Shown here in pieces: positions 245 to 18,053 of a stretch of 25,813 nucleotides of DNA. How positions within the stretch are numbered: position 1 is the stretch's first letter; each line of letters starts with the position of its first letter. The position numbers and the translations under genes were made by a program. The stretch is from a virus: the IMG/VR virus record IMGVR_UViG_3300032516_000177, positions 1 to 25,813 of that record. The stretch is one strand, 5' to 3'. A model generated the notes under the pieces. It was not told where the DNA came from. It searched no databases and saw only the letters and a list, made by a program, of their open reading frames with translations.

Positions 245-268
245 GAACCAAATAATTTTTGTATAATA
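245..268 (+). promoter_or_regulatory. Conserved 24-nt promoter-like element, copy 1 (P1)
   Basis: A sequence beginning GAACCAAATAA and ending GTATAATA is identical here, at 3381 and at 14179. It lies between genes and contains a TATAAT hexamer at 262-267 that could serve as a -10 box, preceded by T5-G. No TTGACA lies 17 bp upstream. The Bacteroidota -7 pattern (TA-N2-TTTG) is only approximated, with one extra base. Invariance over 24 nt is more than a host sigma factor usually needs, so a phage-encoded or phage-modified polymerase may read it. Transcription would start near 274. Confidence 0.7.
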
Positions 269-283
269 AATAAAGAAATTAAT

Positions 284-391
284 ATGAAGGCGGTCATAAG
301 AAAGTGGGTTTTTTGTTTTTCATTTTTCGTTTTGTATTGGTTAAACTGGAGGTCAGAAGTAAGTACACCCCGCCTGGTGGAAAGCTTCTGA
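284..391 (+). CDS. Possible 35-aa hydrophobic leader peptide
   Basis: An ATG at 284, about 10 nt after the expected transcription start of P1, opens a 35-codon frame ending in TGA at 389-391. After a short basic start (MKAVIRK) come about 15 hydrophobic and aromatic residues (WVFCFSFFVLYWLNW), then a polar tail, so the product would be a single-span membrane peptide. Its last 13 codons run through the hairpin at 350-394 and its stop codon is in the 3' arm, an arrangement that would let a translating ribosome open the hairpin. There is no Shine-Dalgarno, as for most genes here. It could also be a chance ORF. Confidence 0.35.
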   Translation: MKAVIRKWVFCFSFFVLYWLNWRSEVSTPRLVESF

Positions 392-398
392 CCTTTTT
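350..398 (+). terminator. Hairpin plus T-run in the P1 leader (terminator or attenuator)
   Basis: AGGTCAGAAG (350-359) pairs perfectly over 10 bp with CTTCTGACCT (385-394), and TTTTT follows (394-398). Inside the 25-nt loop, CACC (366-369) can pair with GGTG (376-379). The layout is that of an intrinsic terminator, yet it sits between promoter P1 and the gene starting at 410. It would either end a small RNA of about 125 nt or attenuate the downstream operon. A second near-copy of the 5' arm (GGTCATAAG, 292-300) could compete for the 3' arm. Confidence 0.55.
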
Positions 399-409
399 AT
401 ACATTAAAT

Positions 410-1000
410 ATGCAAAGAACAAAATTTCCCAATCAAAAAAAGGATATCTTTCATAGTTTTCGTGGGTTTAATTCCGATAATAAAATTATGTTCAGTTTTG
501 TGGTACATCAAGAGATTGACAAGTTGGTTATAAAAACAGCATCCAACAATGTATTATATAATAACTATTCTCTGGATACTAATAATAAAATTAATAAAGA
601 ACCTCGATCAAGCAAAAAGGAACAGAAAGAGATAGAATTTTTACCATTGTCCATGTTACTTTATAAAACAATATCTTCCTATAGAAATATTACCTACAGT
701 AGAAATCAAATTCGATCTTGGGCAAAGGAGATTAGAATTTTAAATGAAGTAAACAAAGTTGATTATGACAGAATAGAAAAAGTTTTAGAGTGGTATTCAA
801 AAAATATAGGGGGTAAATATATTCCAATTATACTTTCTGGATATTCATTAAGAACAAAATTTTTCAGGTTGGAAGATGCCATAGAAAGAAATACAACATC
901 TAAATCTGATAAATATGAATACTTTGACGGAGTTAAATACATAAAGGGGGATGATGGAAGGTATTATCATGCTCGAACAGGAACTTTATATATACCATAA
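410..1000 (+). CDS. Replisome-organiser / helicase-loader-like protein
   Basis: A 196-aa protein whose stop overlaps the start of the helicase gene by one base (TAATG). The C-terminal half carries a pattern seen in phage replication initiators that load helicases: W-A-K-E-I-R-x-L near residue 104, then I-x-x-V-L-x-W-Y (122-129), a proline-containing stretch, and S-G-x-S-L-R-x-K-F (143-151). Residues 1-80 are polar and not recognised. The tail (171-196) is rich in Gly and Tyr. Its position directly before the replicative helicase supports a role in replication initiation or helicase loading. The N-terminus MQRTK matches a motif shared by several other proteins here. The functional call rests on pattern memory and context. 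Confidence 0.5.
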   Translation: MQRTKFPNQKKDIFHSFRGFNSDNKIMFSFVVHQEIDKLVIKTASNNVLYNNYSLDTNNKINKEPRSSKKEQKEIEFLPLSMLLYKTISSYRNITYSRNQIRSWAKEIRILNEVNKVDYDRIEKVLEWYSKNIGGKYIPIILSGYSLRTKFFRLEDAIERNTTSKSDKYEYFDGVKYIKGDDGRYYHARTGTLYIP

Positions 1001-2247
1001 TGATTGAGAGAAAAATTATAATAGGGTTAATTACATCAACGGATTTTTTAAAAAGGATTAAACCCCTTTGGAGTCCAAGATATCTTGAATCTGATATAGC
1101 AAAAAGAATGTCCTCTTGGTGTTGGGAATATTATGATAAATATAATGAAGCTCCAAAGAAAGAGATAGAATCTATATTTTATTCTAAACTTAAAGAAAAT
1201 AAGTTTTCAAAGAGTATAGCAGAGGAAATAGAAAATGATATACTACCAGGGCTAAGCAAGGAATATGAATTAACCACCTTTAATTTAGAATACTTGGTAG
1301 AGGAAAGTGTAAAGTATTTAAATGATAGACATCTTGCTATACACAATGAAGAAATAGAAGCTTTACGAACGGCTGGTAGAATTGAGGAGGCTCAAAAGTT
1401 AGCATGTGAATTTAAACCATTAGGGGGGAATAAAGTTGATGTAAATAATTTTATTTTAGACCGAACTCAAATTGAGGCTAAAAAAACTAAGGCACCCACT
1501 TTATTATTGAAACCTTGGTTAAGAGAAGGTCAGGTAACAATCCTTTATGGTGATGCAGGTACTGGTAAATCATTATTAACAATACTTATTGGTTATTTAA
1601 TTGGATTAAAAGATTATCAGGGTAAAAATTGTCAAATAGGAACCTGGCAAGTTAAAACTCGAACAGGGTGTCTTTACATTGATGGGGAATTAGGATTAAT
1701 AGAGATGGAAGAAAGATTAAGACAGTATAAATGGATGGGTGAACAGCAAGGTTCCTATAGGATAAGAGTATTATCAATACCTGAATATCAAATAGCATCG
1801 GAAGATCCTTTTTCATTATCAACAAGAATTAATCAATTAAAAATAACAAGTTGGTTAAAAGAGCATCCATCATATAAATTGATTATACTTGATAGTATAA
1901 GTACCTTGTTTGGATTAGAGGATGAGAATAGTAACTCCGAGTGGAATAATAAAGTCAACCCTCTTCTGAGAGATCTCAGGGCTTTAAAGGTTGCCTGTAT
2001 ATTATTACACCACTCAGGAAAGGACGGCAAGAGAGGCCTTAGAGGGGCGTCGGCTATGAAGGCAATGGCTCATAATGTATTTAGGATTGCTAATCATACA
2101 GAGAAGGATGTTGATGAAGGAGAGGCGTGGTTTACAATTCAAAAGGATAAGCAACGATCCGGGGGGTTATTATTTAGAACCTTTTCAATACACTTTACAC
2201 AAACAGAAGATAGAAATGAAACACATTGGGAAATTACTAATAATTAA
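1000..2247 (+). CDS. Replicative DNA helicase, DnaB/RepA-type (AAA_25-like)
   Basis: A 415-aa RecA-fold ATPase. Residues 1-140 form a helical N-terminal domain like that of DnaB-family helicases. Walker A is GDAGTGKS (184-191), Walker B is LIILD (294-298) followed by SIS, and VACILLHHSGKDGKRGLRGASAM (331-353 region) resembles the L2/H-loop of RepA-type hexameric helicases. It would unwind the phage fork 5' to 3' and work with the polymerase, clamp and clamp loader encoded downstream. The ATG at 1000 overlaps the stop of the preceding gene. A primase domain is not visible in this gene, and no separate primase is obvious in the window. Confidence 0.8.
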   Translation: MIERKIIIGLITSTDFLKRIKPLWSPRYLESDIAKRMSSWCWEYYDKYNEAPKKEIESIFYSKLKENKFSKSIAEEIENDILPGLSKEYELTTFNLEYLVEESVKYLNDRHLAIHNEEIEALRTAGRIEEAQKLACEFKPLGGNKVDVNNFILDRTQIEAKKTKAPTLLLKPWLREGQVTILYGDAGTGKSLLTILIGYLIGLKDYQGKNCQIGTWQVKTRTGCLYIDGELGLIEMEERLRQYKWMGEQQGSYRIRVLSIPEYQIASEDPFSLSTRINQLKITSWLKEHPSYKLIILDSISTLFGLEDENSNSEWNNKVNPLLRDLRALKVACILLHHSGKDGKRGLRGASAMKAMAHNVFRIANHTEKDVDEGEAWFTIQKDKQRSGGLLFRTFSIHFTQTEDRNETHWEITNN

Positions 2248-2259
2248 AATCTAAAAATT

Positions 2260-2613
2260 ATGTACAAAATTAGAAAAGAATTTCATTTTAGTGCTAGCCA
2301 CATTCTTAATCATTTACCGGAGGATCATCCCTGTTCAAGATTGCATGGTCATAATTACATTATTACTTGTGAGTTTGCAAGTAAAGAACTTAATGATGTA
2401 GGATTTGTAATTGATTATCGTGCTCTTGAACCTATAAAGAAGTTTATTGATGATAACTTTGATCATAGACATTTAAATGATCATATGGCAAGAAATCCTA
2501 CTGCTGAAAATATAGCAAGGCTACTCTTTACCTTGTTTTGTGGTGAGTTCCCAACACTTGTTGCAGTAGAAGTAAGTGAAACTCCTAAAACAAGTGCTAG
2601 ATATGAATGTTAA
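2260..2613 (+). CDS. queD: 6-carboxy-5,6,7,8-tetrahydropterin synthase
   Basis: A 117-aa member of the 6-pyruvoyl-tetrahydropterin synthase/QueD family, close to the usual length. It turns dihydroneopterin triphosphate into 6-carboxytetrahydropterin, the second step of 7-deazaguanine synthesis. Visible residues are the zinc-binding histidines H14 (FSASH), H29 and H31 (LHGH), the catalytic cysteine C25 between them, DHRHLND (68-74), PTAENIA (80-86) and E107 (SETP). It is followed with an 11-bp overlap by QueE, which acts next. The start follows a 12-bp gap with no Shine-Dalgarno. Confidence 0.9.
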   Translation: MYKIRKEFHFSASHILNHLPEDHPCSRLHGHNYIITCEFASKELNDVGFVIDYRALEPIKKFIDDNFDHRHLNDHMARNPTAENIARLLFTLFCGEFPTLVAVEVSETPKTSARYEC

Positions 2614-3373
2614 ACAAATTATATCAGCGGAAGACTATAAGATTAGAAAAGTCTTTCATAAGGAGGGAGGGAACTATCTTAACATCTCTGAATTCTATTA
2701 TGATACTATCCAAGGGGAAGGAATATATCTTGGGCATCCTGCAGCATTTATAAGATTGCAGAATTGTACAATGAATTGTTCCTATTGTGATACTACAGAA
2801 GTATGGAGGTATGGGAGCCCTTATTCCTTTTATGAGATAAATGAATTAATGCTAGCACATGATATTCTTTATCAATTAAAACATGGTCAACATCTGGTTT
2901 TCACAGGGGGGAGTCCTTTATTACAGCAAGATAAGATTAAAAAGTTTCTTATCATGTTTAATAAAACTTTTAACTTTCTTCCCTTTGTTGAAATTGAAAA
3001 TGAATGTACTCTTTTACCAAGTGATAATTTAATTCCCTTTGTTAATTGTTGGAATAACTCACCTAAACTTGCAGAAAGTGGAGTCCCTATTGAGATTAGA
3101 TATCGAGAACAAATAATTAAAAAATTGGCAGGGTTACAAAATTCATGGTTTAAGTTCGTTGTATCTATTGAAGATGAATGGGATGAAATTGATAATTATT
3201 ATCTTTTTAATAAATTGATTAAAAAAGAACAGATTATATTAATGCCATTAGGAACAACAAGAATTGAATTAGAATCAAATCGTGAGGCAGTTCTAAAAAT
3301 AGCCGTGGAACAAGGAGTTAGGTATTGTTCAAGGGAACATATTGTGCTTTGGGATAAGCGCATTGGGGTGTAA
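2603..3373 (+). CDS. queE: 7-carboxy-7-deazaguanine synthase (radical SAM)
   Basis: A 256-aa QueE: it rearranges 6-carboxytetrahydropterin into 7-carboxy-7-deazaguanine (CDG) using a [4Fe-4S] cluster and S-adenosylmethionine. The family signatures are QGEG (37-40), the cluster motif C55-x3-C59-x2-C62 in NCTMNCSYCDT, and GGSP (102-105) in place of the common GGEP. The C-terminus ends in REHIVLWDKRIGV. I chose the ATG at 2603 over a GTG at 2576 because it gives a short overlap with queD and the QGEG motif then sits at a normal distance from the N-terminus. It is the last gene before the second conserved promoter-like element. Confidence 0.88.
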   Translation: MNVKQIISAEDYKIRKVFHKEGGNYLNISEFYYDTIQGEGIYLGHPAAFIRLQNCTMNCSYCDTTEVWRYGSPYSFYEINELMLAHDILYQLKHGQHLVFTGGSPLLQQDKIKKFLIMFNKTFNFLPFVEIENECTLLPSDNLIPFVNCWNNSPKLAESGVPIEIRYREQIIKKLAGLQNSWFKFVVSIEDEWDEIDNYYLFNKLIKKEQIILMPLGTTRIELESNREAVLKIAVEQGVRYCSREHIVLWDKRIGV

Positions 3374-3380
3374 CGGGCGT

Positions 3381-3404
3381 GAACCAAATAATTTTTGTAT
3401 AATA
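3381..3404 (+). promoter_or_regulatory. Conserved 24-nt promoter-like element, copy 2 (P2)
   Basis: Identical over 24 nt to the elements at 245 and 14179, with TATAAT at 3398-3403. It lies 7 bp after queE and about 43 bp before the ATG at 3447. Unlike the other copies, its 3' part is in a palindrome (TATAATA at 3398-3404, TGCG, TATTATA at 3409-3415) that could be an operator or a hairpin at the start of the transcript. It would drive the modification and polymerase genes up to 14175. Confidence 0.7.
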
Positions 3405-3446
3405 TGCGTATTATATTTTTATTGTTTAATTTAAAATTTGAATTTT

Positions 3447-4289
3447 ATGGCAAACGAAAAGCAGTTGCGTAAAGCCGCAGCAGAATTGAATTCCGTATTG
3501 TTTGAGACAGGAGATGAGCAAGCAATTGACATCAAAGCAAGTGTAAAAGTCCTCATCGAGGCTATTAAAGAGGCAGCATCACTTCTTACCCCTGATGATG
3601 ACATCTCTGAAGTTACTCAAGCAGTTATTGATGAACTTGTTCCTCCTACTCCTAAGAAAGGAAAAGTTGGAAAAGCAAAACCTCCTGTGGAGGAAGAAGA
3701 GGATGAGGATGAGGGTGAACCAGAAGATGAGGATGAGGATGAGGATGAGGGTGAACCAGAAGATGAGGAAGAAAAGGATCTCAAAGCGCAAGTTGAAGAC
3801 GCAGAGAAACTAGCTGACTTAAAAATTCTTGTTAAAGAAAACAAAGAGTTTAAAACCCTTAAGGCTGATTTAGCCTCCTACAAGAAGGCTGATGATCTAA
3901 GAGATGACATGCTGGCTATTCTTGAGGAAGAAGAAGAGGAGGATATTCCTGAAAAACTTCACAAGAAAAACATTGCTAAGAAAAAAGTGAATTCTAAGGA
4001 AGATGAAGATGAAGATGAGGAAGAAACTCCTAAGAAGAAAAGAGCCGGTGGTCCTCCAAAAGGTGTAAAACCCAGTTTTAAGAAAGAGGGTTCGATGGCA
4101 CAGTTTATGGATGAAACTGTTAAAGAAGGAGGAACTTGGGAAGAAATATTTGCTGTAATAAGCAAAGAAGCCAAGAAACGTGGTGTGAAAACAACTCTGT
4201 CTACAATTAAAGCACACACAAAATTCCGGCTCAGTAAGGACGCTAAGTTCCTTGGAAAACTCAAAATGAAAGAGGATGGAATTGAGTGA
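3447..4289 (+). CDS. Acidic low-complexity protein with C-terminal basic domain, unknown function
   Basis: A 280-aa protein in three parts. Residues 1-75 look helical and folded. Residues 76-210 alternate between highly acidic runs ([11 protein letters not shown] repeats, then EEEEEE and EDEDEDEEE) and basic patches (KKR, KKKV). Residues 211-280 form a compact, lysine-rich domain with TWEEIF and [13 protein letters not shown] that could bind nucleic acid or protein. The charge pattern resembles the linker of the SSB-like protein at 15928. I start at the ATG at 3447 and not at the in-frame TTG at 3438. It is the first gene after P2, so it is probably made in quantity. Function unknown. Confidence 0.7.
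3708..3770 (+). repeat. Tandem 36-bp-period repeat coding for DEGEPEDE
   Basis: A 26-bp sequence starting GATGAGGGTGAACC at 3708 recurs at 3744, a 36-bp (12-codon) period, with GAT/GAG triplets between. It encodes repeated acidic residues around GEP. Replication slippage is the likely origin, and copy number may vary between related phages. Confidence 0.6.
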
Positions 4290-4827
4290 GACACTCATTC
4301 AATCAATTTTACGACAACTGGGAGAGGATCCTGAGCGAGAAGGTCTTAAGGATACTCCCAGTAGAGTCGTAAAATCCTGGAGTGAATTATATGCTGGGTA
4401 TGGTAAAGACGTATCCAGCATCTTCACTATTTTTACAGATGTTCACGATTATTGTCAAATAGTGATATGTAAAAATATAGAAATGTATTCTATTTGTGAG
4501 CATCATATGTTACCTTTTATTGGAAGAGCTCATGTAGCATATCTACCAGATAAAAAAGTAATAGGATTATCCAAACTTGCACGACTTGTTGATATTTATG
4601 CAAGACGTTTACAAATACAAGAACGAATTGGTGAACAAGTAACCGACGCACTTATGCAATATCTACAACCAAAGGCAGCAGCATGTATCATTGAAGCATC
4701 ACATCTTTGTATGCGTATGCGAGGAGTAGGTAAACAAGATTCAACAATGGTAACTTCTTCAATGAAAGGAGAGTTTCTACAGGATACTGCTATGAGGTCT
4801 GAATTATTACACCTACTTAAACTATGA
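4276..4827 (+). CDS. folE: GTP cyclohydrolase I
   Basis: A 183-aa type I GTP cyclohydrolase, which converts GTP to dihydroneopterin triphosphate and formate and supplies QueD. Zinc and catalytic residues are C74-E-H76-H77 in [10 protein letters not shown], and H143 with C145 in [26 protein letters not shown] (26-35) is also typical. The length is near that of compact bacterial FolE. It overlaps the acidic protein by 14 bp and the next gene by 4 bp. In a phage with QueD, QueE, QueC and a DpdA-like gene, its role is most likely deazaguanine supply and not folate. Confidence 0.93.
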
Positions 4828-5846
4828 TTAATTCACTAACATATCTAACACGTGGCTGTCCAAGACATTGTGAATATTGTGCCCTACGTGAAGCGGTAGG
4901 TATTGGTAAACAGTTAGACGTGCGAGGGTGGAAGGAAGCCTTTCGTATATTACATGAACTTAATGTGGATTTTAATCTTGTACTTGGTAACGAAACATGG
5001 TTGTTAGGTACAGGTTTAATTGATATATTTAAAGATAATAAAATTCCTTACGCCCTTTACACCACTTGCCCAGAACCAATATTTAGTAAACATAAATATG
5101 AATTATTTGACTCAGGAGTTATTGATAATTTATCCTGTGGAATTGATTATCCCATTATCGAGGGATTATTAATTGATGATGATTCCTATGCTAAATCTAA
5201 ATCAGCTTGGTGGGGTTTTAAATGGATTAAACAATTTTACCCAGAGGTTGACACGCAAGGTACTATTACCATTCATAAAAAGAATTTACCATACGTCTTG
5301 GCTCTTGTGAAGTCCTTATCTCAAATAGGAGTCTTTGTAGGGATTAATTTTATACATTGGAATAGAGATGGTAAGTATGATTTCTTTCCAAAGAAGGAAG
5401 AGATTGCCGATTTGTTGTTTACAAAGGATGATTATATTGATGTTACAAGGATAATGTATCAAGTAAGAAACCTACCGGGTAATTTATTACAGAATCCAGA
5501 ATTTATTGCCCAACCCCCTTCCTTATTACTTAATATGGGATGGCACTGCCACGGTAATCCTTATGGTGGACCAACTGTTGATTCCGATGGGAAGTTAAGA
5601 TGTTGTGGTTATAGAAGGGGGGAAGAGACTTCTAAATTATCTATCTTTGATTTACCTAAAAGATTACTTGATTGGAAGTGGGCTGTTTGGGAAGATGCAA
5701 TGCGCTGTCCTGGATGTGCTTGGTCATATCCTTGGATGTATAATTACTGGGAAAGAAATGATCGTGAGTTGGGTAAGAAAGTTTTTTCTCAGCACGCTGG
5801 AAAACATATCGATGAAAATAAATGGTCTAATAGAAAAATAAAATGA
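4824..5846 (+). CDS. Radical SAM protein with extra C-terminal cysteines, unknown substrate
   Basis: A 340-aa radical SAM enzyme. The cluster motif C12-x3-C16-x2-C19 (GCPRHCEYC) lies unusually close to the N-terminus. The C-terminal third has a second set of cysteines ([31 protein letters not shown]) like the auxiliary-cluster region of SPASM or related proteins. It is distinct from QueE. It overlaps folE and the methyltransferase gene by 4 bp each, within a run containing queC, a deacetylase, a glycosyltransferase and dpdA-like genes. Its context suggests it alters a deazaguanine nucleotide or the modified base, but the substrate cannot be read from the sequence. Confidence 0.75.
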
Positions 5847-6517
5847 AAAGTTACGACGAAGAAACTATCGAATTGTTCAACTTATCCATCATAGAAGATG
5901 AATTTGATGATAAATTACAAAACAATGATATCTATGATGGATTTGTTTCTGGGGGTAAAGAATTGGAAAGATTAATTTCTACAAAGGATATTATGACAGA
6001 TAAATCCCCGGATGAACTTCATGTATTAAATGTTGGTGCTGGGCAGGCTGATTTAAAAGTTATATTCCCACCCAATTCATTAATTATTAATTTAGAACCG
6101 TGTCCTCAAAGGGTGACAGAAAATACAATTGAAGGATGGTGTGAGGCAGTACCAGAAGATTTGGTATTACAAGACGTCGTTATATGTTGGGGAGTGCTTT
6201 GCTTTGTAAGAAGCCTGCCTGAAACTCTTATAAATTTTAATCGGGTTTTATTTAGAGGGGGGTATTTAATTGTTGATGTGGTTACATTTTCCACAATGCC
6301 GTTACCACAAACAGTTCATCCTGACTCCTTTATACGATATGTAAGACTATTTGGATTTGAATTAGAAGAAAGAATAAACTTCGGACCAGAGTATCATCAA
6401 AGGGTTGGTTATCGTTTTAAACTGGTAGAGGAATTCAATTACAAGAGATTAAGAATGCCACAATGTGGTGAAAAAATAAATAACTATCTACCAGAAAGGG
6501 ACTGGTTCATGAGATAA
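5843..6517 (+). CDS. Class I SAM-dependent methyltransferase-like protein
   Basis: A 224-aa Rossmann-fold protein. Motif I is VLNVGAGQADL (61-71), followed by the acidic strand IINLEPCP (81-88), then DVVICWGVLCFV, and LFRGGYLIVDVV, the usual motif after the post-motif III helix in class I methyltransferases. There is no DPPY or NPPY motif, so a classical DNA adenine or cytosine-N4 methyltransferase is unlikely; the fold is closer to small-molecule methyltransferases. It lies between the radical SAM gene and queC with a 4-bp overlap and a 1-bp gap. A role in tailoring the deazaguanine base is possible but unproven. Confidence 0.65.
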   Translation: MKSYDEETIELFNLSIIEDEFDDKLQNNDIYDGFVSGGKELERLISTKDIMTDKSPDELHVLNVGAGQADLKVIFPPNSLIINLEPCPQRVTENTIEGWCEAVPEDLVLQDVVICWGVLCFVRSLPETLINFNRVLFRGGYLIVDVVTFSTMPLPQTVHPDSFIRYVRLFGFELEERINFGPEYHQRVGYRFKLVEEFNYKRLRMPQCGEKINNYLPERDWFMR

Positions 6518-6518
6518 T

Positions 6519-7067
6519 ATGAATAAAAAGTATGATTTACTTATCCTCTTTAGTGGGGGATACGATAGCACTTTGCTTGTACAATTGGCAATGAACATGG
6601 ACGCTAATATTCTATGTTTACTATTTGACTACGGACAAAAGCATATTATAGAATTAGAATATGCAAAGGAGTTTTGTTTAAAGAGAAATATTCCTTACGA
6701 GATAATTAAGCTAAGTTTACCAATTGCCTCAAACCTTACGGATGAAAAGAAAACATATGAAGGAGTCAATATACATCATGTACCAGCAAGAAATCTTATG
6801 TTTCTTTCTATCGCAGCAAGTATTGCAGAGAGTAAAGAAATACTTACAATTTGGTATGGTGCTAATTATGAGGATAGAGAAAAACTCTTCCCAGATTGTT
6901 ACCAGGAGTGGATTTTTAAACTAAATGAATTACTTGAGATTAATGGAAGTCTTAAAATTACAGTTGAAGCTCCTTTACTTGGTATGTCTAAAGAAACAAT
7001 AAAAACATTGGCAAAAGTTTTTAATATTAATGATGATAAAGTATTTAGCGGTTATGAAAAAGAGTAA
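6519..7067 (+). CDS. queC: QueC-like 7-cyano-7-deazaguanine synthase lacking the zinc site
   Basis: A 182-aa N-type ATP pyrophosphatase. QueC turns CDG into the amide (ADG) and then into preQ0, using ATP and ammonia. SGGYDST (P-loop-like, 12-18), FDYGQKH (37-43) and VPARNLMFLSIA are clear family signatures, as is YPDC-like FPDCYQEW. Typical QueC is about 220-230 aa and ends with a CY...CGxCxxC zinc site. Here the protein stops at VFSGYEKE: the first cysteine is replaced by glycine and the other three are absent. No cysteine motif appears in the overlapping downstream frame, so a simple frameshift is not the explanation. It may make ADG, act only in part, or use another stabilising element. 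Confidence 0.82.
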   Translation: MNKKYDLLILFSGGYDSTLLVQLAMNMDANILCLLFDYGQKHIIELEYAKEFCLKRNIPYEIIKLSLPIASNLTDEKKTYEGVNIHHVPARNLMFLSIAASIAESKEILTIWYGANYEDREKLFPDCYQEWIFKLNELLEINGSLKITVEAPLLGMSKETIKTLAKVFNINDDKVFSGYEKE

Positions 7068-7437
7068 AGACAAGACGTTTACTAAATTAGTAGACAAACA
7101 GCACAGTCCATTAGTGATACGCAAGTACACTCATTGGGGATTTCCAATCTATGTTGGTTTAATTGCCGACCAAGATTTAACAAACCTTGACAAAAAGGTT
7201 GTTAAGTTTATGAAGAAGTTTAAAAAGAAGAATTGGGTGAACAATATCCAAACACTTCGTAATTTAGCAGGAGCCATGACGGATTATCTAAATGATTCTT
7301 ATGACACCGCAGAAGGTGTAGCAGTTGTTTTCTATGTTGATAAATGTTTTATCTCTTCTTTGTACGGTGACTTTATGAATCATGAATCCTGTAGGATAGA
7401 GTTTTACGGTTTACTTAATATGAGTACAGGAGTATGA
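7054..7437 (+). CDS. Hypothetical protein in the modification cluster
   Basis: A 127-aa protein, unrecognised. It starts MKKSKDKTF at 7054 (14-bp overlap with queC); an upstream in-frame ATG at 7030 is less likely because it gives a longer overlap. It has a basic middle (KKVVKFMKKFKKKNW) and a mixed alpha/beta C-terminus with VAVVFYVDKCFISSLYGDF. No membrane segment or known motif is visible. It overlaps the deacetylase gene by 4 bp. Its location between queC and the deacetylase suggests a part in the same pathway, but that is inference. Confidence 0.65.
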   Translation: MKKSKDKTFTKLVDKQHSPLVIRKYTHWGFPIYVGLIADQDLTNLDKKVVKFMKKFKKKNWVNNIQTLRNLAGAMTDYLNDSYDTAEGVAVVFYVDKCFISSLYGDFMNHESCRIEFYGLLNMSTGV

Positions 7438-7883
7438 CAAAATTTATAATTATAGCACCCCATGCAGATGATGAGGTAATTGGGTGCTACGCTAAATTAG
7501 CCAGATATCAAGTAGCAAAAGTTTTATTTCCAAATAAACCTGCATTAATAGAGGCAAGCGATTCAAGTGAACATTTTAAATTTGGAAGGCAGTTGATTGC
7601 TGATCATAAATATTCAGATAAATATGTCTATCTGTTTCCAGATCCTATATATGAAACGCATCCATTACACAGGGAATTAGGTTCCGACGGGGAACGCCTT
7701 TTGCGAGCCGGTCTGCCTGTTATTTTTTATACAACAAATATGTTAGCCCCATACATTCATGAGGTGAAAGAGGCTGACAAAAAGAGAGATTGTCTATATG
7801 CTTTGTACAATAATAAAAGCAAATTGTGGGAGTATGAACATAAATACTTTTTGTTTGAAGGGTATAATGCCTGGTTGTTATGA
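7434..7883 (+). CDS. PIG-L/LmbE-like N-deacetylase, compact
   Basis: A 149-aa protein beginning with the diagnostic PIG-L/LmbE motif PHADDE (9-14), whose His and second Asp bind zinc and whose first Asp is the catalytic base in this family. A later HPLH (76-79) is a good candidate for the third zinc ligand. Family members remove acetyl groups from N-acetylglucosamine in GlcNAc-PI, mycothiol and bacillithiol precursors and other GlcNAc conjugates. Typical members exceed 200 aa, so this is a short form. It overlaps the glycosyltransferase gene by 4 bp, matching the common pairing of a sugar transferase with a de-N-acetylase. Confidence 0.7.
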   Translation: MTKFIIIAPHADDEVIGCYAKLARYQVAKVLFPNKPALIEASDSSEHFKFGRQLIADHKYSDKYVYLFPDPIYETHPLHRELGSDGERLLRAGLPVIFYTTNMLAPYIHEVKEADKKRDCLYALYNNKSKLWEYEHKYFLFEGYNAWLL

Positions 7884-8806
7884 GTAGACTAATATTAGTA
7901 CCACAATATCCTACTAAACTGAGATATCAGGAATGGTGGTTTGATAGATTCCCTGAGGAGTTTAGTTTCTACTTTAATGAAATCATTGTACTTGGTGGGG
8001 AGGCTCATTATACGATAGAAGACCTTGGTAATAGTTTTGCCCCTGTTGAAGCCTCAATAGCATTTGAATTACTACAAATACAAATTTACAATGAAATGCA
8101 ATTGAAAAAGGATGATATTCTGTTGCTATGTGATTTAAGTTTCCCAGGATTGTTTGCCAATATTTTATTTCATAAACGCCCTAACCGATGTTTTGCTATT
8201 TGTCATGCTACAAGTAAAAATGCACATGATTATTATGCAAAAGATAAGAAAATTAAGTTTCCTATTGAAACTAATCAAGCAAAACTATTTGATGCTATAT
8301 TTGTAGCAACAGAATATCATAAGCATAAATTAAATTGGGGGAATGTTATTGTTCAAGGGTTTCCTAATCCTCCCTTTCCTATCCCTGTACCCACAGCAAA
8401 TAAAGAATATCCAATAATAAGTGTAGCAAGAAATTCAGTACAAAAAAGGACTTTACATATTGAAAAAGAAGTAGAAAAAGCATTTAATACCCAAATAGTT
8501 AGACCAGATGTTCAAACTTGGGAAGAATATTATTCCTTTTTGGCTTCTGCAAAAGTATTATTAATTACTTCAAAGGAAGAGACTTACGGATATCAGGTTG
8601 TTGATGCAGTACTTAATGATTGTATTCCTATTGCCCCGAATCATTTTAGTTATCCTGAACTATTACCTAAAGAATATTTATATAATACGATTGGAGAACT
8701 TATTCAAATAATAATAAAAGCTCTACACAATAAACTATCTGTTCCAGAGTTAAAAGTTCATCCCGATTATTTTTATCAAAATATATATATGTATATGACA
8801 TCATGA
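7880..8806 (+). CDS. GT-B fold glycosyltransferase (GT4-like)
   Basis: A 308-aa protein with two Rossmann-like halves. The C-terminal half has PIISVARNSVQKR (178-190), ASAKVLLITSKEETYGYQVVDAVLND (222-247) and CIPIAPNHFSYPELLP, matching the sugar-nucleotide-binding end of GT4-type enzymes (the E-x-(F/Y)-G-x2-x2-(D/E)-A pattern). The N-terminal half, which would bind the acceptor, includes DDILLLCDLSFPG and an FPNPP linker. It is wedged between the deacetylase and the DpdA-like gene with 4-bp overlaps, so the acceptor may be the modified base in DNA or a precursor. A surface-polysaccharide role is the alternative. Confidence 0.72.
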   Translation: MSRLILVPQYPTKLRYQEWWFDRFPEEFSFYFNEIIVLGGEAHYTIEDLGNSFAPVEASIAFELLQIQIYNEMQLKKDDILLLCDLSFPGLFANILFHKRPNRCFAICHATSKNAHDYYAKDKKIKFPIETNQAKLFDAIFVATEYHKHKLNWGNVIVQGFPNPPFPIPVPTANKEYPIISVARNSVQKRTLHIEKEVEKAFNTQIVRPDVQTWEEYYSFLASAKVLLITSKEETYGYQVVDAVLNDCIPIAPNHFSYPELLPKEYLYNTIGELIQIIIKALHNKLSVPELKVHPDYFYQNIYMYMTS

Positions 8807-9840
8807 AAAAACCAAAAGTAATTTTAGATTCCGGTGCATACACTGCACATAGGAAAGGTAAAAAGATTGACATTGATGACTATGCCGAATACGTAAAAGA
8901 GCATGGTAATGAGTATGATATGTGCTTTAACCTTGATTCAATAGGTAATGCTAAAAAAAGTTATACCAATTGGAAATATCTTCAAAGTAAAGGAGTAGAT
9001 ACTGTCCCTATTTATCACATAGGAACTAATGAAGTTTTCCTCAGGAAGTATTTACGTGAAACTGATTATATTGGCTTAGGAGCAATTGCCAATCTTGAGA
9101 CAACTCAACGATTACTTGGATTAAGTCATATATGGAAAACGTATCTTACAAACAAAGAAGGGATACCCACCGTAAAAGTACATGGATTAGGATTAACGGC
9201 TGTTGATATTATGATTCGTTATCCATGGTATTCCGTTGATAGTTTCACTCCAGTTATTTCTGCGGTATGGGGTAGTGTATTACTACCCAGATTGGATAAT
9301 GATGGTACTCCTCATTATTTTAAACTTGGGATCAGTAAAATATCTGATCAAGGGGACCACAAAGTAGATATGGCAAATAGTTTTCCAAGTCTGCCAGAAA
9401 GGAGTAAAGGAGTTTACTATAAATTGTTTGAAAAGTATGGATTTAAAATAGGGGAAATAGCCTATCAAGTAAAAAAAGATAGGAGAGGAAAACAAGGAGA
9501 AAATGAAAGGAAACCAGTTCCTATGTTTGACTTAATAAAGCCTGCAAATATAAAAACAAGAACGTTAGCAAACAGTTGGGAAGAAAGGATGAGGTGGAAC
9601 CTAACAATGTGGACACACCTTAGAAAAAGGTTACCCATCTATCCAAGACCCTTCGTGGATAAAAATGATGCTTATGAAGAAGAGATAAACAATCATCCAA
9701 AGACAATAATGTATATGGGAGTTTCAACTACAACTCACTTAAACATATTTAATATGATTTCTCCTAAACTTGATATTCTAATAAGTTATGCTTATTTAAC
9801 TGATCCTATTAATAAATTAATTAAAGAGTATATAAAATGA
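8803..9840 (+). CDS. dpdA: DpdA-like DNA 7-deazaguanine transglycosylase
   Basis: A 345-aa TGT-like TIM-barrel protein. Strand-end motifs are VILDSGAYTA (6-15), CFNLDSIGN (41-49), VPIYHIG (68-74), YIGLGAI (89-95), VKVHGLGLTA (124-133) and YPWYSVDSFTP (140-150). DSGA, GLGAI and SVDS are typical of phage DpdA proteins, which exchange guanine in DNA for a deazaguanine base; one of the Asp residues (D9 or D146) would be catalytic. Residues 220-270 are basic and may contact DNA. The presence of all precursor genes in the same operon strongly supports this over a tRNA enzyme. It overlaps its neighbours by 4 bp. Confidence 0.75.
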   Translation: MKKPKVILDSGAYTAHRKGKKIDIDDYAEYVKEHGNEYDMCFNLDSIGNAKKSYTNWKYLQSKGVDTVPIYHIGTNEVFLRKYLRETDYIGLGAIANLETTQRLLGLSHIWKTYLTNKEGIPTVKVHGLGLTAVDIMIRYPWYSVDSFTPVISAVWGSVLLPRLDNDGTPHYFKLGISKISDQGDHKVDMANSFPSLPERSKGVYYKLFEKYGFKIGEIAYQVKKDRRGKQGENERKPVPMFDLIKPANIKTRTLANSWEERMRWNLTMWTHLRKRLPIYPRPFVDKNDAYEEEINNHPKTIMYMGVSTTTHLNIFNMISPKLDILISYAYLTDPINKLIKEYIK

Positions 9841-10520
9841 AAAGGACAAAGGTAAAAGAAATTATTCTTCCACTCTTTACTCTACAAAGGTCAAAAAGAG
9901 TTCTTAAGTCAGGAGTACAGACTTTAAAGGAAGATGTTGAAACTTTTATGATCCCTACCCTACAAAAGTATGGATTTGATGGAAAGTTAGTTCTAGCAAA
10001 GGAGGTAGATAAAAAACATGCTAAGAAAGATTATGAAAGCTATTCACCCGCAAGAACAAGTGCAAGACAATTGTTATATGGTGCTGAAGCAGGGTGGTTT
10101 CTTGAGATTTGGAAGCAAGGTAGGCCAAAGACAAAACTTGTTGTAAAACCATTTGTGAGGGAAGATTTAAAAGCAATAAGAAATTTACCAAGGTATAATT
10201 TAAGAACGATTGTTGCTCAAATGCTAATGACTAATGCCCATCCTCAGGCTCGTATAAAAGCAATATTAGATAAGTTTTATGCATTAGATTTGACATTCTT
10301 AATTATGACAAAAACAGGAATGTTTTGGTTGGGTAAATATCGTTCTATACCATTTGATCAATATGATTTAACCTATCGGAAGGATAAAAAAACATTAGAT
10401 AGATTACGTGTTAAGAATGGTTTTCAAAAAGGAAAGATTCATAGTATTAAAGATTGTTTGGTAGAAGAATTAAAGAAAGAGTTATATTTCTTCAATAAAA
10501 ATAATAAATATGAAAGTTAA
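9837..10520 (+). CDS. Hypothetical basic protein between the DpdA-like and clamp genes
   Basis: A 227-aa lysine- and arginine-rich protein with no motif I recognise. It starts MKRTKVKEI, one of the recurrent M-x-R-T-K N-termini in this window. The middle has aromatic beta-like segments (AGWFLEIWKQ, TLTFLIMTKTGMFWLGKYRS). The pattern is that of a nucleic-acid-binding protein but no fold can be assigned. It overlaps the DpdA-like gene by 4 bp and the clamp gene by 11 bp, which suggests translation coupled to both. It may help DNA modification or replication. Confidence 0.65.
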   Translation: MKRTKVKEIILPLFTLQRSKRVLKSGVQTLKEDVETFMIPTLQKYGFDGKLVLAKEVDKKHAKKDYESYSPARTSARQLLYGAEAGWFLEIWKQGRPKTKLVVKPFVREDLKAIRNLPRYNLRTIVAQMLMTNAHPQARIKAILDKFYALDLTFLIMTKTGMFWLGKYRSIPFDQYDLTYRKDKKTLDRLRVKNGFQKGKIHSIKDCLVEELKKELYFFNKNNKYES

Positions 10521-11532
10521 TAAAGCACAACTACAAAAAGCACTTGAAATTGTCAAGCCAGGACTTGCCAGTAAAGAGCAAATTGAACAATCAACATCCT
10601 TTGCTTTTATAAAGGGAAGGGTGGTTACTTATAATGATGAGATTAGTGTTTCACATCCTGTAAAAGGCCTAGAATTAGAAGGAGCCATTTTAGCAGAGAA
10701 TCTTTATAAGTTTTTAACCAAAATTAAAAAGGAAGAGATTGAATTAGAATTAAAAGACAATGAAATTATTCTAACATCTGAAAAGGCTAAGGCAGGATTA
10801 CTTCTACAAAAGGAAATTAAACTTCCTTTGGAGGAAGGGGTTACTGAAAAGGGGGAATGGTATGATCTACCCGAACACTTTCTAACAGACCTTGCTTTTG
10901 TAATGACAATTTGTGGGAAAGATTTAAGTCGTCCTATTTTAACGGCTTGTCATATAAATAAGGCGGGATTTATTGAAGGTTCTGATGGTTATAGGATAGC
11001 CCGTTGTGAATTAGGAGAGAAATTACCAGTAGATACTTTTCTGTTACCAGCAAAATCCGCAGTTGAGGTAGTAAAAATGAAACCAATTCAGATGGCTGAA
11101 GGAAAAGGATGGATTCATTTTAAAACACCAGCAAGAACAATTATTCACTGTCGTATCCTTTTAGGGGATAGATATCCTACAACAGGATCCTGGTTTAATG
11201 AGGATGGTATTTTAGTTAGGCTTCCAAAAATAACTAATGAAATATTAGCAAGGGCACAGGTATTTGCAAAGAGGGATCATTTACTTGATGAGTCAATTAC
11301 ACTTTCTTTTGAGAAAGGACTTTTTTGTATGACATCCCAATCCGACACAGGTTGGTTTAAAGAGGAGGCAGACATGCGATTTACAAGTACACCTGTTAAG
11401 ATTGATGTAACCCCATACCTGTTAAAAAGTATATTGGAAGAGACAAGCACATTTAAATATACTGAAGATAAACTTACCTTTAAAGGTGAAAGGTGGTATT
11501 ATGTCACAACACTAAGACATCCCAAGAAATGA
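10510..11532 (+). CDS. dnaN: DNA polymerase sliding clamp (beta-clamp-like)
   Basis: A 340-aa divergent beta-type clamp, a little shorter than bacterial DnaN (about 366 aa). Domain 1 starts MKVNKAQLQKALEIVKPGL; the central section LSRPILTACHINKAGFIEGSDGYRIARCEL followed by LPVDTFLLPAKSAVEVVKM is the recognisable domain 2 to 3 region of DnaN; the C-terminal part ends in a short basic tail. It would encircle DNA and tether the polymerase encoded just downstream. The clamp loader is the gene at 14215. Its stop overlaps the next start by 4 bp. Confidence 0.8.
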   Translation: MKVNKAQLQKALEIVKPGLASKEQIEQSTSFAFIKGRVVTYNDEISVSHPVKGLELEGAILAENLYKFLTKIKKEEIELELKDNEIILTSEKAKAGLLLQKEIKLPLEEGVTEKGEWYDLPEHFLTDLAFVMTICGKDLSRPILTACHINKAGFIEGSDGYRIARCELGEKLPVDTFLLPAKSAVEVVKMKPIQMAEGKGWIHFKTPARTIIHCRILLGDRYPTTGSWFNEDGILVRLPKITNEILARAQVFAKRDHLLDESITLSFEKGLFCMTSQSDTGWFKEEADMRFTSTPVKIDVTPYLLKSILEETSTFKYTEDKLTFKGERWYYVTTLRHPKK

Positions 11533-12779
11533 TAGAAGGGTTTTTTACAAAGAAAGAAACGGAATCAAAGTCCCGACCTGCAGGTAAATCTCAATCATGT
11601 GTCTCCTGCGGATTATACAAGGATTGTGACTCCCCAAAAATGGAACCTTATGGTAACTTCAAAAAGAAGATACTTAATATTGGTGAGGCTCCTGGGGAAT
11701 ATGAGGATAGGAATGGAAAACCTTGGCAGGGTAAGATGGGAAGAATGCTACAACAAACCTATGAAGACTTAGATGTTGATTTGTTTGAGGATTGTTTAAA
11801 TATAAATTCAGTAAACTGTCGACCAAAAGATAAGCAAGGTCATAATAGAGCTCCTTCCAATGTAGAGATCGATTGCTGCCGTAAGAGAGTATTCAGTATA
11901 ATAGAGGAATACAAACCCAAGGTAATACTTTTATTAGGAAATGCCCCCTTATATAGCCTTATTGGACATAGATGGAAAAAGGACTTGGGTGGGATTACAA
12001 AGTGGAGAGGATTTACTATTCCTGATCAAGACTTCAAGACTTGGTTATGCCCTACATTTCATCCCAGTTATATTGAAAGGGCTAATAGTATTTCTAACTA
12101 TAAAGGTGAACCTATTGAAAATGTTATTTGGAAACAGGATTTAAAGGAAGCGTTTGGTATGGCAAAGATTCCCTTTCCTGTTTATGTTGAACCTGTAATT
12201 GAAATTATAGAAGACCTATCAGTATTAAAGAAAATAAAATATGAGAGTGCTTTTGATTATGAAACAACTGGATTAAAGCCTCACGCCGTAGGACATAGAA
12301 TTATTTGTGTTTCAATAGCTGATACAGAAAACCATGCGTATGTGTTTTTAATGCCAAAGACAAGAAAAGAAAGGGAGCCATTCATACAATATTTAATAAA
12401 CCCAGAGTTAAAAAAAGTTGCTCAAAATATGAAGTATGAACATTGTTGGAGTAAAGTAAGACTGGGAGTTGACGTACAAGGTTGGGAATGGGATACAATG
12501 CTAGCAACTCATTTGTTTGATAATAGACCTGGGATTTGTGGATTAAAGTTTCAAGTCTATGTACAATTTGGAGTTGTTGATTACTCCAGTGATGTAGATC
12601 CTTACATGAAAGCAGTAGATAATATAAATGCTAATTCATTAAATAAGATGCTTGACTTATTAAAAACACCAAATGGTAAGGAGGTATTATGTAAATATTG
12701 TGGATTAGATAGCATAAATGAATTGAGACTTGCAAATAGACAACGAATGAATTTATTACCTTTTTACTATGTACTATGA
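11529..12779 (+). CDS. Uracil-DNA glycosylase (family 4-like) fused to 3'-5' exonuclease domain
   Basis: A 416-aa two-domain protein. Residues 20-210 are a family 4/5-like UDG: cysteines C24, C27, C97 and C116/C117 are placed to hold a [4Fe-4S] cluster, motif A is GEAPGEYED (52-60) with GKPWQGKMG, and motif B is HPS (178-180). Residues 235-405 are the proofreading exonuclease of family A polymerases: D243-x-E245 (Exo I), N300 region (Exo II, with E304 where Asp is common), D322, and Y390-x3-D394 (Exo III). A polymerase with an N-terminal UDG-like domain is known in SPO1. The frame ends at a 7-bp duplication where the polymerase begins. The start is the ATG overlapping the clamp stop, not an upstream GTG at 11493. 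Confidence 0.82.
   Translation: MIEGFFTKKETESKSRPAGKSQSCVSCGLYKDCDSPKMEPYGNFKKKILNIGEAPGEYEDRNGKPWQGKMGRMLQQTYEDLDVDLFEDCLNINSVNCRPKDKQGHNRAPSNVEIDCCRKRVFSIIEEYKPKVILLLGNAPLYSLIGHRWKKDLGGITKWRGFTIPDQDFKTWLCPTFHPSYIERANSISNYKGEPIENVIWKQDLKEAFGMAKIPFPVYVEPVIEIIEDLSVLKKIKYESAFDYETTGLKPHAVGHRIICVSIADTENHAYVFLMPKTRKEREPFIQYLINPELKKVAQNMKYEHCWSKVRLGVDVQGWEWDTMLATHLFDNRPGICGLKFQVYVQFGVVDYSSDVDPYMKAVDNINANSLNKMLDLLKTPNGKEVLCKYCGLDSINELRLANRQRMNLLPFYYVL
12765..12778 (+). repeat. 7-bp tandem duplication TACTATG at the exonuclease/polymerase junction
   Basis: TACTATG at 12765-12771 is repeated at 12772-12778. Taking out one copy joins the upstream frame (LLPFYY) to the downstream frame (EPEIMNAY) in one continuous UDG-exo-polymerase ORF. 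The duplication creates both the TGA that ends the upstream gene and the ATG-bearing overlap that starts the polymerase. Confidence 0.85.
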
Positions 12780-14175
12780 ACCAGAAATAATGAATGCTTA
12801 TAAACTCCTTCACGAAGGAGTATTAGCCTTCGCCCATGCTGAACAGCAAGGGATTCGTATTGATATGGAGTATGTTACTCTTAAAATGAAACATCTAACA
12901 AGAACTATTGAAAAGTTAGAAGCCAATTTTAGTAAAACCAAATTCTTTAGACATTGGCAACATACTGTTAAGGGAAAAGTCAACATTCATTCTAATGTAC
13001 AATTGGCTAATTTCCTTTATAAAATTAAAGGGATTCAAATAGAAAAGGAAACTGTCTCAGGACAGGGTGCTACGGATGAAGAAGCCCTGCGAAAGATGGA
13101 CATCCCTGAATTAAGTGACTTACTACAAATTCGTAAACTTAAAAAAATACGTGATACTTACCTGGATGGATTTATAAGAGAACAAGTTGATGGATATATA
13201 CATCCTTTTTTCAATCTACATTTAGTTAAAACATATCGTTCAAGTTCTGATAGTCCTAATTTCCAGAATATTCCTAAACGTGATGAGGAAGCAATGATGA
13301 TTGTTCGGAGAGCACTTTGTCCCCGTCCTGGGCATCAGTTATTAGAATTAGATTATTCGGGGCTTGAAGTACGTATTGCTGCCTGTTATCATAAGGATAA
13401 GACTATGTTAGCCTATATAAACAATCCTGCCTCAGATATGCATACGGATATGGCAAAACAGATATTTATCATAGATAAATTTAATAAGGATCTTCCATCA
13501 CATAATGTATTAAGACAAGCTGTCAAAAACGGATTTGTCTTTCCAGAGTTCTACGGGGACTATTATAAAAATTGTGCTGAGAGTATGGCTTGCTCGTGGG
13601 GTAAATTAGGCAGGGGTGTATGGAAACCTGGACAGGGAATAGACATGCCTGAAGGACATTTAGCTGATCATTTTATTAAAAAGGGAATTAAATCATTTCC
13701 AAAGTTTGTTGACCATGTACAAAAGATAGAAAAGGATTTTTGGGGTAGGAGGTTCCCTGAGTATGCTAAGTGGAAAGAAACTTGGTGGAGAGAGTACAAG
13801 AAAAAAGGATACCTTATAATGCATACAGGATTTAGATGTAGTGGAATTATGAGTAGAAATGATGTAATTAACTATCCCGTACAAGGATCTGCATTTCATT
13901 GTTTATTGTGGAGTTTTATTGAGTTAGATAAGAGGTTAGAAAGAAAAGAAATGAATTCCAAAATTGTAGGTCAAGTACATGACTCTATCATAATAGATAT
14001 TGACCCAAGAGAATTGGAAGAGGTTGTCAAACTTGTTTATAAAATTACATGTCAAGATATACAGAAAACCTGGCCTTGGATAATTGTTCCACTTGATATA
14101 GAAATAGAATTATGTCCAATAGATGGTAGTTGGGCAGAGAAAGAGAAGTATGAATTTAGATATTTCTTTAGTTAA
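12769..14175 (+). CDS. polA: DNA polymerase family A, polymerase domain
   Basis: A 468-aa polymerase module. The thumb region (11-140) includes AEQQGIRID; TYRSSSDSPNFQNIPKRD (155-172) is the conserved DNA-binding stretch; motif A is LDYSGLEVR (194-202) with metal ligand D195; motif B/O-helix is R249-x3-K253-NGFVFPEFYG, one residue longer than the E. coli helix; motif C is QVHDS with H404-D405. About 60 extra residues lie between motif B and NYPVQGSA. It overlaps the exonuclease gene by 11 bp. The natural partner domain is the UDG-exonuclease upstream, so the two products probably act together. The gene is followed directly by the third promoter-like element. Confidence 0.9.
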   Translation: MYYEPEIMNAYKLLHEGVLAFAHAEQQGIRIDMEYVTLKMKHLTRTIEKLEANFSKTKFFRHWQHTVKGKVNIHSNVQLANFLYKIKGIQIEKETVSGQGATDEEALRKMDIPELSDLLQIRKLKKIRDTYLDGFIREQVDGYIHPFFNLHLVKTYRSSSDSPNFQNIPKRDEEAMMIVRRALCPRPGHQLLELDYSGLEVRIAACYHKDKTMLAYINNPASDMHTDMAKQIFIIDKFNKDLPSHNVLRQAVKNGFVFPEFYGDYYKNCAESMACSWGKLGRGVWKPGQGIDMPEGHLADHFIKKGIKSFPKFVDHVQKIEKDFWGRRFPEYAKWKETWWREYKKKGYLIMHTGFRCSGIMSRNDVINYPVQGSAFHCLLWSFIELDKRLERKEMNSKIVGQVHDSIIIDIDPRELEEVVKLVYKITCQDIQKTWPWIIVPLDIEIELCPIDGSWAEKEKYEFRYFFS

Positions 14176-14178
14176 TTA

Positions 14179-14202
14179 GAACCAAATAATTTTTGTATAA
14201 TA
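14179..14202 (+). promoter_or_regulatory. Conserved 24-nt promoter-like element, copy 3 (P3)
   Basis: Identical to the copies at 245 and 3381, with TATAAT at 14196-14201, 3 bp after the polymerase stop. The next ATG (14215) is only 13 nt after the end of TATAAT, so a start about 7 nt downstream would give an almost leaderless mRNA. It would drive the clamp loader and recombination genes. Confidence 0.7.
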
Positions 14203-14214
14203 TATAAAACCATT

Positions 14215-15126
14215 ATGAGCCTATACCTAAAATACAGACCAAGGAGATTAGAACGGATTAGAGGTAATATAAATCTAATTAAAACTTTGGGTGCTTTACT
14301 TCAACAGGAAGACTGTCCACGTACCTTTTTACTTCATGGACCTACTGGTTGTGGTAAAACTACCATAGCCAGAATAATGGCGAATAGACTGGGGAGTACA
14401 GGAATTGATATACGAGAAATAAACTCTGCTGACTTTAGAGGGATTGACACAATACGGGATGTCATACAAAAAAGTCAGTATATGCCAGTTGAAAGTAAAT
14501 GTACATTTTGGATAATTGATGAGTGTCATAAACTGACAGGGGATGCACAGAATGCACTATTAAAAATATTGGAGGATACACCAGATCAAGTATATTTCGT
14601 CCTATGTACTACTGAACCCCAGAAACTAATTGCCACTATAAAAGGTAGGTGTAGTCAATTCCAAGTAAAACCTTTGTCAGAGGAAGAGATGCTTTCTTTA
14701 TTAAAAGATGTAGTTTCAAAGGAAGGAGATGAACTTGAGCAAGAAGTATATGATATAATTATAAGGGACAGCACAGGTTTACCAAGGAACGCATTACAAA
14801 TACTTGAACAGGTATTAAATGCTCCAGAGGAAGAGAGATTAAAAGTTGCTGAACAAGCACAGTTTGAATATTCACAAGCTATTGAATTATGTAGAGCTCT
14901 GTTAAATAAATCACCGTGGAAGGTAATAAATAAAATATTGGCAGGGTTAAAAGAACAAGAGGCTGAAACAATTAGAAGGATTGTATTGGGGTATTGTCAA
15001 GCGGTATTATTAAAAACGGATAATTATCAAGCGGGAGTTGTATTAGAAGAATTTATCAGTCCATTTTATGATTCAGGATTTCCACAATTAGTATATGCTT
15101 GTTATTCAATAATTAAAACCAAATAA
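14215..15126 (+). CDS. DNA polymerase clamp loader subunit (DnaX/RFC-like AAA+ ATPase)
   Basis: A 303-aa AAA+ protein. It starts with the typical LYLKYRPRRL box, then Walker A GPTGCGKT (42-49), Walker B WIIDE (99-103) with ECHKL, sensor 1 in VLCTTEPQ (129-136), and the arginine-finger motif GRCSQF (144-149). Residues 150-210 are the lid domain (TGLPRNALQILEQ), and the rest is the collar-like C-terminus. It would load the clamp encoded at 10510. Only one loader subunit is visible, so the ring may be a homo-oligomer or use a second subunit elsewhere. It is the first gene after P3. Confidence 0.88.
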   Translation: MSLYLKYRPRRLERIRGNINLIKTLGALLQQEDCPRTFLLHGPTGCGKTTIARIMANRLGSTGIDIREINSADFRGIDTIRDVIQKSQYMPVESKCTFWIIDECHKLTGDAQNALLKILEDTPDQVYFVLCTTEPQKLIATIKGRCSQFQVKPLSEEEMLSLLKDVVSKEGDELEQEVYDIIIRDSTGLPRNALQILEQVLNAPEEERLKVAEQAQFEYSQAIELCRALLNKSPWKVINKILAGLKEQEAETIRRIVLGYCQAVLLKTDNYQAGVVLEEFISPFYDSGFPQLVYACYSIIKTK

Positions 15127-16995: not shown

Positions 16996-18053
16996 TGGAA
17001 AGAACAAAGAAACCAACTTCCCTGAATGATCAGATAAAAAGGAAGGTAGCCAACAGTGGAAAAGATAACATTAAAGAACTGGATGGGAAGTTCTTCGGAA
17101 ACAACATATCAACTGGTTCAACGCTCCTTGACTTGGCGATTAGTGGAGGGAGAGTCAGGGGAGGTGGTTTGCCTTGTGGGATCCTTGTTGAAATATTCGG
17201 ACCAAGTGGAAGTGGGAAAACCGTATTCCTATCTGAAATCGCAGGGGACATTCAAAGAAAAGGTGGGGACTTAATGTTTTATGATCCTGAGGCCAGATTA
17301 AATAAACCCTTTGCTAAAATGTTTGGATTAGATATTACGGATGATAACTATTCACGTCCCAATACTATTCCTCAGGTATTTAGGGCAGTTAGAAAATGGG
17401 AACCAGAAGGAGGGAAGAATACAATTCATGGCATTATGGCTGATTCCCTTGCTGCCCTTTCTACTGATCAGGAAATGGAAAAGGAGGAGGGAGATAAAAT
17501 GGGTATGAGGAGACCCAAAGAATTTAGTGAAGAATTAAGAAGGACTTGTCGTATATTACCTGAGAAAAATTACCTTATGGTTTGTAGTAATCAAGTCCGT
17601 GAAAATATTGATGCAGGCAAGTGGGGGCAAAAGTATTCCTCTCCAGGGGGTTTAGCCATAGGCTTTTATGCAAGTCTAAGATTAATGACTAAAATTACCA
17701 GAAGGATTAAAAAAGAAAAAATATTTCATGGTAAGACAGTTAGTAGAATTATTGGAGTGGACATAGAAGTTGAAGTATTTAAAAATTCTATATGGAAACC
17801 TTTTCGTACTGCACCTGTAACTATAATCTTTGACTATGGAGTTGATGATATTAGACAAAATCTTCAGTTTATAAAAGACTACTCAAAAGGATCTGTCTAC
17901 ACTATTAATGAAGAATCCTTGGATAAGAGTATGGAAATATCCATTAAAAAAATTGAGGAGGATGATCGTGAAGAAGAATTAAAACAAGAAGTTATATTAC
18001 TTTGGAATAAAATTGAAAGGGAGTTTGATAGTCACCGTAAATCAAAAAGATGA
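16995..18053 (+). CDS. recA: RecA/UvsX-like recombinase
   Basis: A 352-aa strand-exchange ATPase. STGSTLLDLAISGG (39-52) and Walker A GPSGSGKT (69-76) are followed by LMFYDPEAR, IMADSLAAL (Walker B) and YLMVCSNQVRENID (L1 and Q-containing switch region). The C-terminus is a charged helical domain. It would form filaments for recombination and repair during replication. The start MERTKK overlaps the SSB stop by one base and carries the M-x-R-T-K motif. The next gene overlaps by 4 bp. Confidence 0.87.
   Translation: MERTKKPTSLNDQIKRKVANSGKDNIKELDGKFFGNNISTGSTLLDLAISGGRVRGGGLPCGILVEIFGPSGSGKTVFLSEIAGDIQRKGGDLMFYDPEARLNKPFAKMFGLDITDDNYSRPNTIPQVFRAVRKWEPEGGKNTIHGIMADSLAALSTDQEMEKEEGDKMGMRRPKEFSEELRRTCRILPEKNYLMVCSNQVRENIDAGKWGQKYSSPGGLAIGFYASLRLMTKITRRIKKEKIFHGKTVSRIIGVDIEVEVFKNSIWKPFRTAPVTIIFDYGVDDIRQNLQFIKDYSKGSVYTINEESLDKSMEISIKKIEEDDREEELKQEVILLWNKIEREFDSHRKSKR

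Follow-up and report, generated by a model that had tools for sequence, protein, structure and literature searches.

The sigma factor gp36 of phage phiEco32 is without region 4 and reads a single element, tAATGTAtA, from which transcription starts 6-8 nt downstream (PMC8948821). In Bacteroidota, the primary factor sigma-A recognises TAnnTTTG, and leaders are by habit A-rich and mostly without Shine-Dalgarno sequences (PMC9723704). A search for sigma/promoter pairs of Bacteroidota phages found none in the literature covered. Here we describe three identical sequences that are very probably the start signals for the DNA-copying genes of an uncultivated virus. Based on comparison with related phages, we propose, with a probability of roughly 80%, that these are promoters of the middle type, belonging to a phage whose host is Bacteroidota-like, and that the host RNA polymerase reads them with a small sigma factor of the phage. 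Phage sigma factors with promoters of their own are a known kind of system; what is new here is the lineage, together with its host context and its natural range of sigma-promoter pairs.

The repeated element in the window and in related phages

The whole stretch of DNA that was analysed (the window) is a 25.8-kb IMG/VR virus record and probably a genome fragment. Its Pfam and PHROG matches include an AAA helicase, queD/queE/folE/queC-like genes, a uracil-DNA-glycosylase/exonuclease, DNA polymerase A, a clamp loader and UvsY-like, RecA-like and RuvC-like genes, and the window is a module for replication, base modification and recombination. The queD, queE-like, folE and queC genes, found at 2260-3373 and 4276-7067, suggest a 7-deazaguanine modification of the phage DNA. 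Several genes within 7030-11532 match no Pfam family, and a B12-binding radical SAM protein is encoded at 18050-19330 amid the phage recombination genes. Acidic (Glu/Asp-rich) repeat tracts of the GAGGATGAG type are found in two genes (3689-3775 and 16700-16880), the latter tract in a putative single-strand binding protein. Leaders in the window and in its relatives are A-rich and mostly without Shine-Dalgarno sequences; because of these leaders and of host-type promoters in relatives, the host is probably Bacteroidota-like. A host search over genome contigs returned one distant and uninformative match, to a SAR86 genome (23% identity).

The 24-nt sequence GAACCAAATAATTTTTGTATAATA occurs exactly three times in the window, always on the + strand, and in 0 of 100 dinucleotide shuffles of the window. 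All three copies are found in gaps 5' of + strand genes (starts 410, 3447 and 14215), while base 25, directly after the 24-mer, is not shared (A, T and T). A first-pass annotation that had reported three identical elements, oriented with the genes and confined to gaps, was thus correct on each of these points. A search of the remaining window yielded no further copy with up to three mismatches, and one degenerate 3' part inside a gene. The features are as follows.

245-268 (core 258-268), + strand: putative promoter copy 1, followed by the leader RNA and then the gene for the DnaD-like helicase loader; orthologous sites at 9450 in G001, 6969 in G003 and 26376 in G004
283-298, + strand: leader RNA hairpin 1, TATGA-AGGCGG-TCATA, loop 288-293
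349-400, + strand: leader RNA hairpin 2, apical loop CCGCCT (370-375) complementary to the loop of hairpin 1, GAAA on the 3' side, T-run
410-1000, + strand: DnaD-like helicase loader (PHROG 2514, E 1e-9), first gene after copy 1 and the leader RNA
3381-3404 (core 3394-3404), + strand: putative promoter copy 2, at the junction of the queE-like gene with gene 3447-4289, which also carries the element in G001, G002, G003, G008 and G017
3447-4289, + strand: function-unknown gene after copy 2; the genes for GTP cyclohydrolase I and QueC come next
8664-8687, + strand: fourth, degenerate copy, within the 3' end of gene 7880-8806; G001 and G002 have an exact core at the orthologous site
14179-14202 (core 14192-14202), + strand: putative promoter copy 3, between the DNA polymerase and clamp loader genes; GTATAATA at this junction in 31 of 48 relatives
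14215-15126, + strand: clamp loader subunit (PF13177, E 1e-23), after copy 3

The 3' part of the fourth copy (8669-8687) reads AAAGAATATTTATATAATA, with three mismatches over 19 nt, and its exact counterpart TTTGTATAATA is found in two close relatives, at 18822 in G001 and at 7323 in G002.

A DNA polymerase query identified 54 loci in the viral collection, from which 20 records were taken for comparison. A scan of the viral collection with the exact 24-mer gave no match, because conservation is limited to the 3' core, [T/A]T[T/C]GTATAATA, of about 11 nt, with an A/T-rich stretch 5' of it. Across 19 records, [AT]T[TC]GTATAATA is found 50 times on the strand of the replication genes and 0 times antisense, compared with 5.6 in shuffles with both strands taken together. 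The cores are mostly 5-60 nt 5' of start codons and recur at orthologous junctions, namely those that follow the sigma gene described below, precede the DnaD-like gene, separate queE from the gene after it, and separate the polymerase from the clamp loader. A logo of 51 sites reveals a weak A/T-rich block of about 13 nt before the core and no conserved -35 signal 16-18 nt before TATAAT; since the sites were collected by their core, its invariance in the logo is by construction, which does not apply to the flanks, the strand bias or the places. Identity over the 13 nt before the core is 100% among the window copies, and averages 49% within other phages and 45% between phages. The invariance over the full length therefore holds within the window (24 of 24 nt), where it reflects local homogenisation of this phage, but is not a rule, as relatives keep only about 11 nt. 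Two polymerase/clamp-loader junctions without the element, in L033 and L049, have TATATTTG or TATCTTTG in its place. At the copy-1 site of G003 (L071, 6969-7060) and G004 (L083, 6376-6440), the phage-sigma element, as TTCGTATAATA, and a host-type TAnnTTTG box stand in tandem, 5' of the same leader RNA as that of the window. Repeated motifs were also sought on the structural strand, with no convincing result.

A small sigma factor coupled to the element

Many relatives encode a protein that matches PF04542 (Sigma70_r2) above the cut-off. The main family is 150-170 aa long, its gene is located between those for an SNF2-type helicase and a primase, and all 31 aligned members match TIGR02937, the sigma70-ECF superfamily model. 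Region 2 is the only region recognised: Pfam models of region 4 do not match the family, and PF04545 matches only elsewhere. In sequence profile comparisons the family matches sigma region 2 of solved structures (8.5e-9), while single-sequence scans return only self-matches and a comparison with 50,697 phage records a single weak phage match. In an AlphaFold model (mean pLDDT 89.7), sigma domain 2 and the N-terminal part can be superposed at 1.0-1.7 A (probability 1.00), although no Foldseek E-value is below 0.001. The C-terminal 66 residues are modelled as a confident helical domain, which resembles sigma region 4 and other HTH folds only weakly and with tied scores (Z up to 4.9) and, on its own, has no significant match in a fold search; as modelled, it may be a diverged region 4. 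The sigma factor gene that the first-pass annotation had suggested looking for thus exists in relatives, but none is found within the truncated window, which starts downstream of the expected position. G004 also encodes, on the minus strand at 7352-7924, a second sigma factor unlike the first, which is about 190 aa long, has both region 2 and region 4 and possibly serves late genes.

The sigma gene and the element are coupled. Among 47 sigma loci, which include several near-duplicates and three that are cut off, 26 have GTATAATA at the end of the gene, overlapping the stop codon in 2 and starting 3-23 nt behind it in 24. These 26 loci include the distant members L153-L155, whose genes follow Shine-Dalgarno sequences. 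For the 14 records that span the helicase-primase junction, repeated sense intergenic copies are present in 9 of 10 with the sigma gene and 0 of 4 without it (Fisher p 0.005). The exception, G014 (L091-L092), has the sigma gene and, by a post hoc search, only the variant TATCGTWTAAT at three places (9081, 14494 and 24610 in oriented coordinates), which, judged by its sequence, is perhaps this phage's own version of the promoter. In the sigma-less G016, there are instead three close host-type promoters, TTG...TATCTTTG, no more than about 40 nt from the starts of genes. Moreover, the triplet before GTATAATA agrees within phages more often than expected (0.636 vs 0.331; 0 of 20000 permutations), being TTC in G003 and G004, ATT in G011 and TGC or TAC in G015, as co-evolution of factor and site predicts. 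These coupling statistics are overstated, because related phages are not independent.

The coupling bears on the question of what reads the element. Recognition by a primary or alternative sigma factor of the host, which the resemblance of the TATAAT core to the common bacterial -10 would suggest, is improbable. Leaders without Shine-Dalgarno sequences and the TTG-TAnnTTTG promoters of G016 point to Bacteroidota, whose sigma-A reads TAnnTTTG (PMC9723704), but a TAnnTTTG box with TTG about 18-21 nt upstream has no intergenic match in the window; in addition, the element is missing in sigma-less relatives and its copies vary together phage by phage. As specific promoter types, the Bacteroidota sigma-A promoter was rejected, as the window copies do not fit TTG...TAnnTTTG, and so was the E. 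coli-type sigma-70 promoter, as the logo contains no conserved -35 hexamer 16-18 nt before TATAAT. The three sites are also not among the matches listed by a scan with the E. coli-type sigma-70 consensus.

The first-pass annotation had been reminded of promoters for a phage-encoded RNA polymerase, recognised across the whole 24 nt. Such promoters would fit the three identical copies and a conserved block that runs without a break over about 24 nt and has no -35 hexamer, but conservation in relatives is restricted to the 3' 11 nt, and relatives have a sigma gene that is coupled to the element. Furthermore, neither a T7-type RNA polymerase (PF00940; none in nine long relatives, T7 control 1e-109) nor a multisubunit RNA polymerase (PF00623; none in the long relatives, controls matching 14 of 14) was detected, and we regard this suggestion as very unlikely. 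Operators or replication-related binding sites, for which the location amid replication genes might speak, are less likely still, given the strict gene orientation (50 to 0), the TATAAT content and the usual position 5-60 nt before start codons. Recognition by the small phage sigma factor is thus the reading that we develop below.

A leader RNA behind the first element

A conserved two-hairpin RNA occupies 283-400 of the window, between copy 1 and the DnaD-like gene. Its two loops complement each other and covary in 15 aligned phages, in which the stems vary too; complementarity to the own partner loop averages 6.0 nt, compared with 4.4 nt for loops of different phages (0 of 20000 permutations). 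A covariance model built on hairpin 2 alone also recognised instances that had not been used for training, six of which have a complement to the loop, 6-9 nt long, 39-70 nt upstream, and the model matched once per record in 14 of 26 related records, sigma-less phages included. Rfam contains no family for this RNA; weak, sub-threshold matches to the Bacteroides sRNAs RteR and FopS were found in one relative. By its covarying sequence the RNA is a kissing-loop structure, which may act as a leader of the attenuator kind, as a small RNA or as a primer of replication. The first-pass annotation had placed the elements at the starts of helicase/queDE, modification/polymerase and clamp-loader/recombination units. 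Orthologous placement and strand bias in relatives agree with dedicated-factor promoters at the starts of functional units, but copy 1 is not simply the start of a helicase/queDE unit, as the structured leader RNA comes first.

Proposed mechanism and comparison with known systems

The element, the conservation of its strand and place, the sigma factor in relatives and their coupling in sequence are established, and from them we infer the binding, start sites, timing and presence of a sigma factor in the window's own phage. The small phage sigma factor, whose gene in relatives would correspond to a position just left of the sequenced fragment, would be made first, from upstream transcription, because the first element follows the sigma gene. 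This protein, with its sigma region 2 and small C-terminal helical domain, would then replace the host sigma factor on the host RNA polymerase and recognise one extended -10-like element alone, (A/T-rich)TTTGTATAATA, with no -35 hexamer. By analogy with phiEco32 gp36 and T4 gp55, transcription would start about 6-8 nt past the core, at about 274-276, 3410-3412 and 14208-14210, so that the clamp-loader mRNA from copy 3 would be nearly leaderless. The replication, base-modification and recombination genes would be switched on in three blocks, with a presumed middle timing because of the gene content and the absence of the element from the structural strand. A more far-reaching version, which we consider tentative and somewhat less probable than its opposite, is that a minimal co-evolving sigma factor re-programmes the Bacteroidota polymerase from TAnnTTTG to the TATAATA-type element and that from the first promoter comes a kissing-loop leader RNA of a new kind, by which the replication operon is gated or replication is primed.

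This sigma-promoter pair belongs to a phage group for which 50,697 phage records contain no close relative. With the natural variants TTTG, TTCG, ATTG, TACG and TGCG before TATAATA and their cognate sigma factors, it can be tested directly how region 2 selects a -10 element and how a minimal sigma factor acts on the Bacteroidota polymerase. Orthogonal gene expression in Bacteroidota is a further possible use of the pair.

Among known promoters, the Bacteroidota sigma-A promoter (TTG ... TAnnTTTG) is the probable host type and is found at the same junctions in some relatives, whereas the window copies differ from it. Like the new family, phage 7-11 gp47 is a phage sigma factor with dedicated promoters at conserved genome positions (PMC8948821); gp47 differs by its bipartite promoter, GTAAtg-(16)-aCTA, and by a region 4, which is not recognised in the new family. 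T4 gp55, which reads the late promoters TATAAATA, shares sigma region 2 homology and a -10-like element without -35 conservation (PMC7892883), but acts on late genes, with gp33 and the sliding clamp as its activators, while the element described here precedes replication genes and no such cofactors are known for it. Region 4 is lacking in phiEco32 gp36 and is not recognised by Pfam in the new family; the two are similar in a single -10-like element, with GTATA and no -35 (PMC8948821), and the phiEco32 promoters are likewise few and at conserved genome positions (PMC8948821). Beyond region 2, gp36 has no detectable sequence relation to the new family: hhalign of the family against gp36 alone gives a probability of 0.3%, out of register, and gp36 itself matches PF04542 weakly. 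The phiEco32 system differs further in its element, as tAATGTAtA constitutes middle/late promoters that also serve late structural genes, whereas here the element is TTTGTATAATA and the structural strand is without it, and in its host, which is E. coli there and Bacteroidota-like here.
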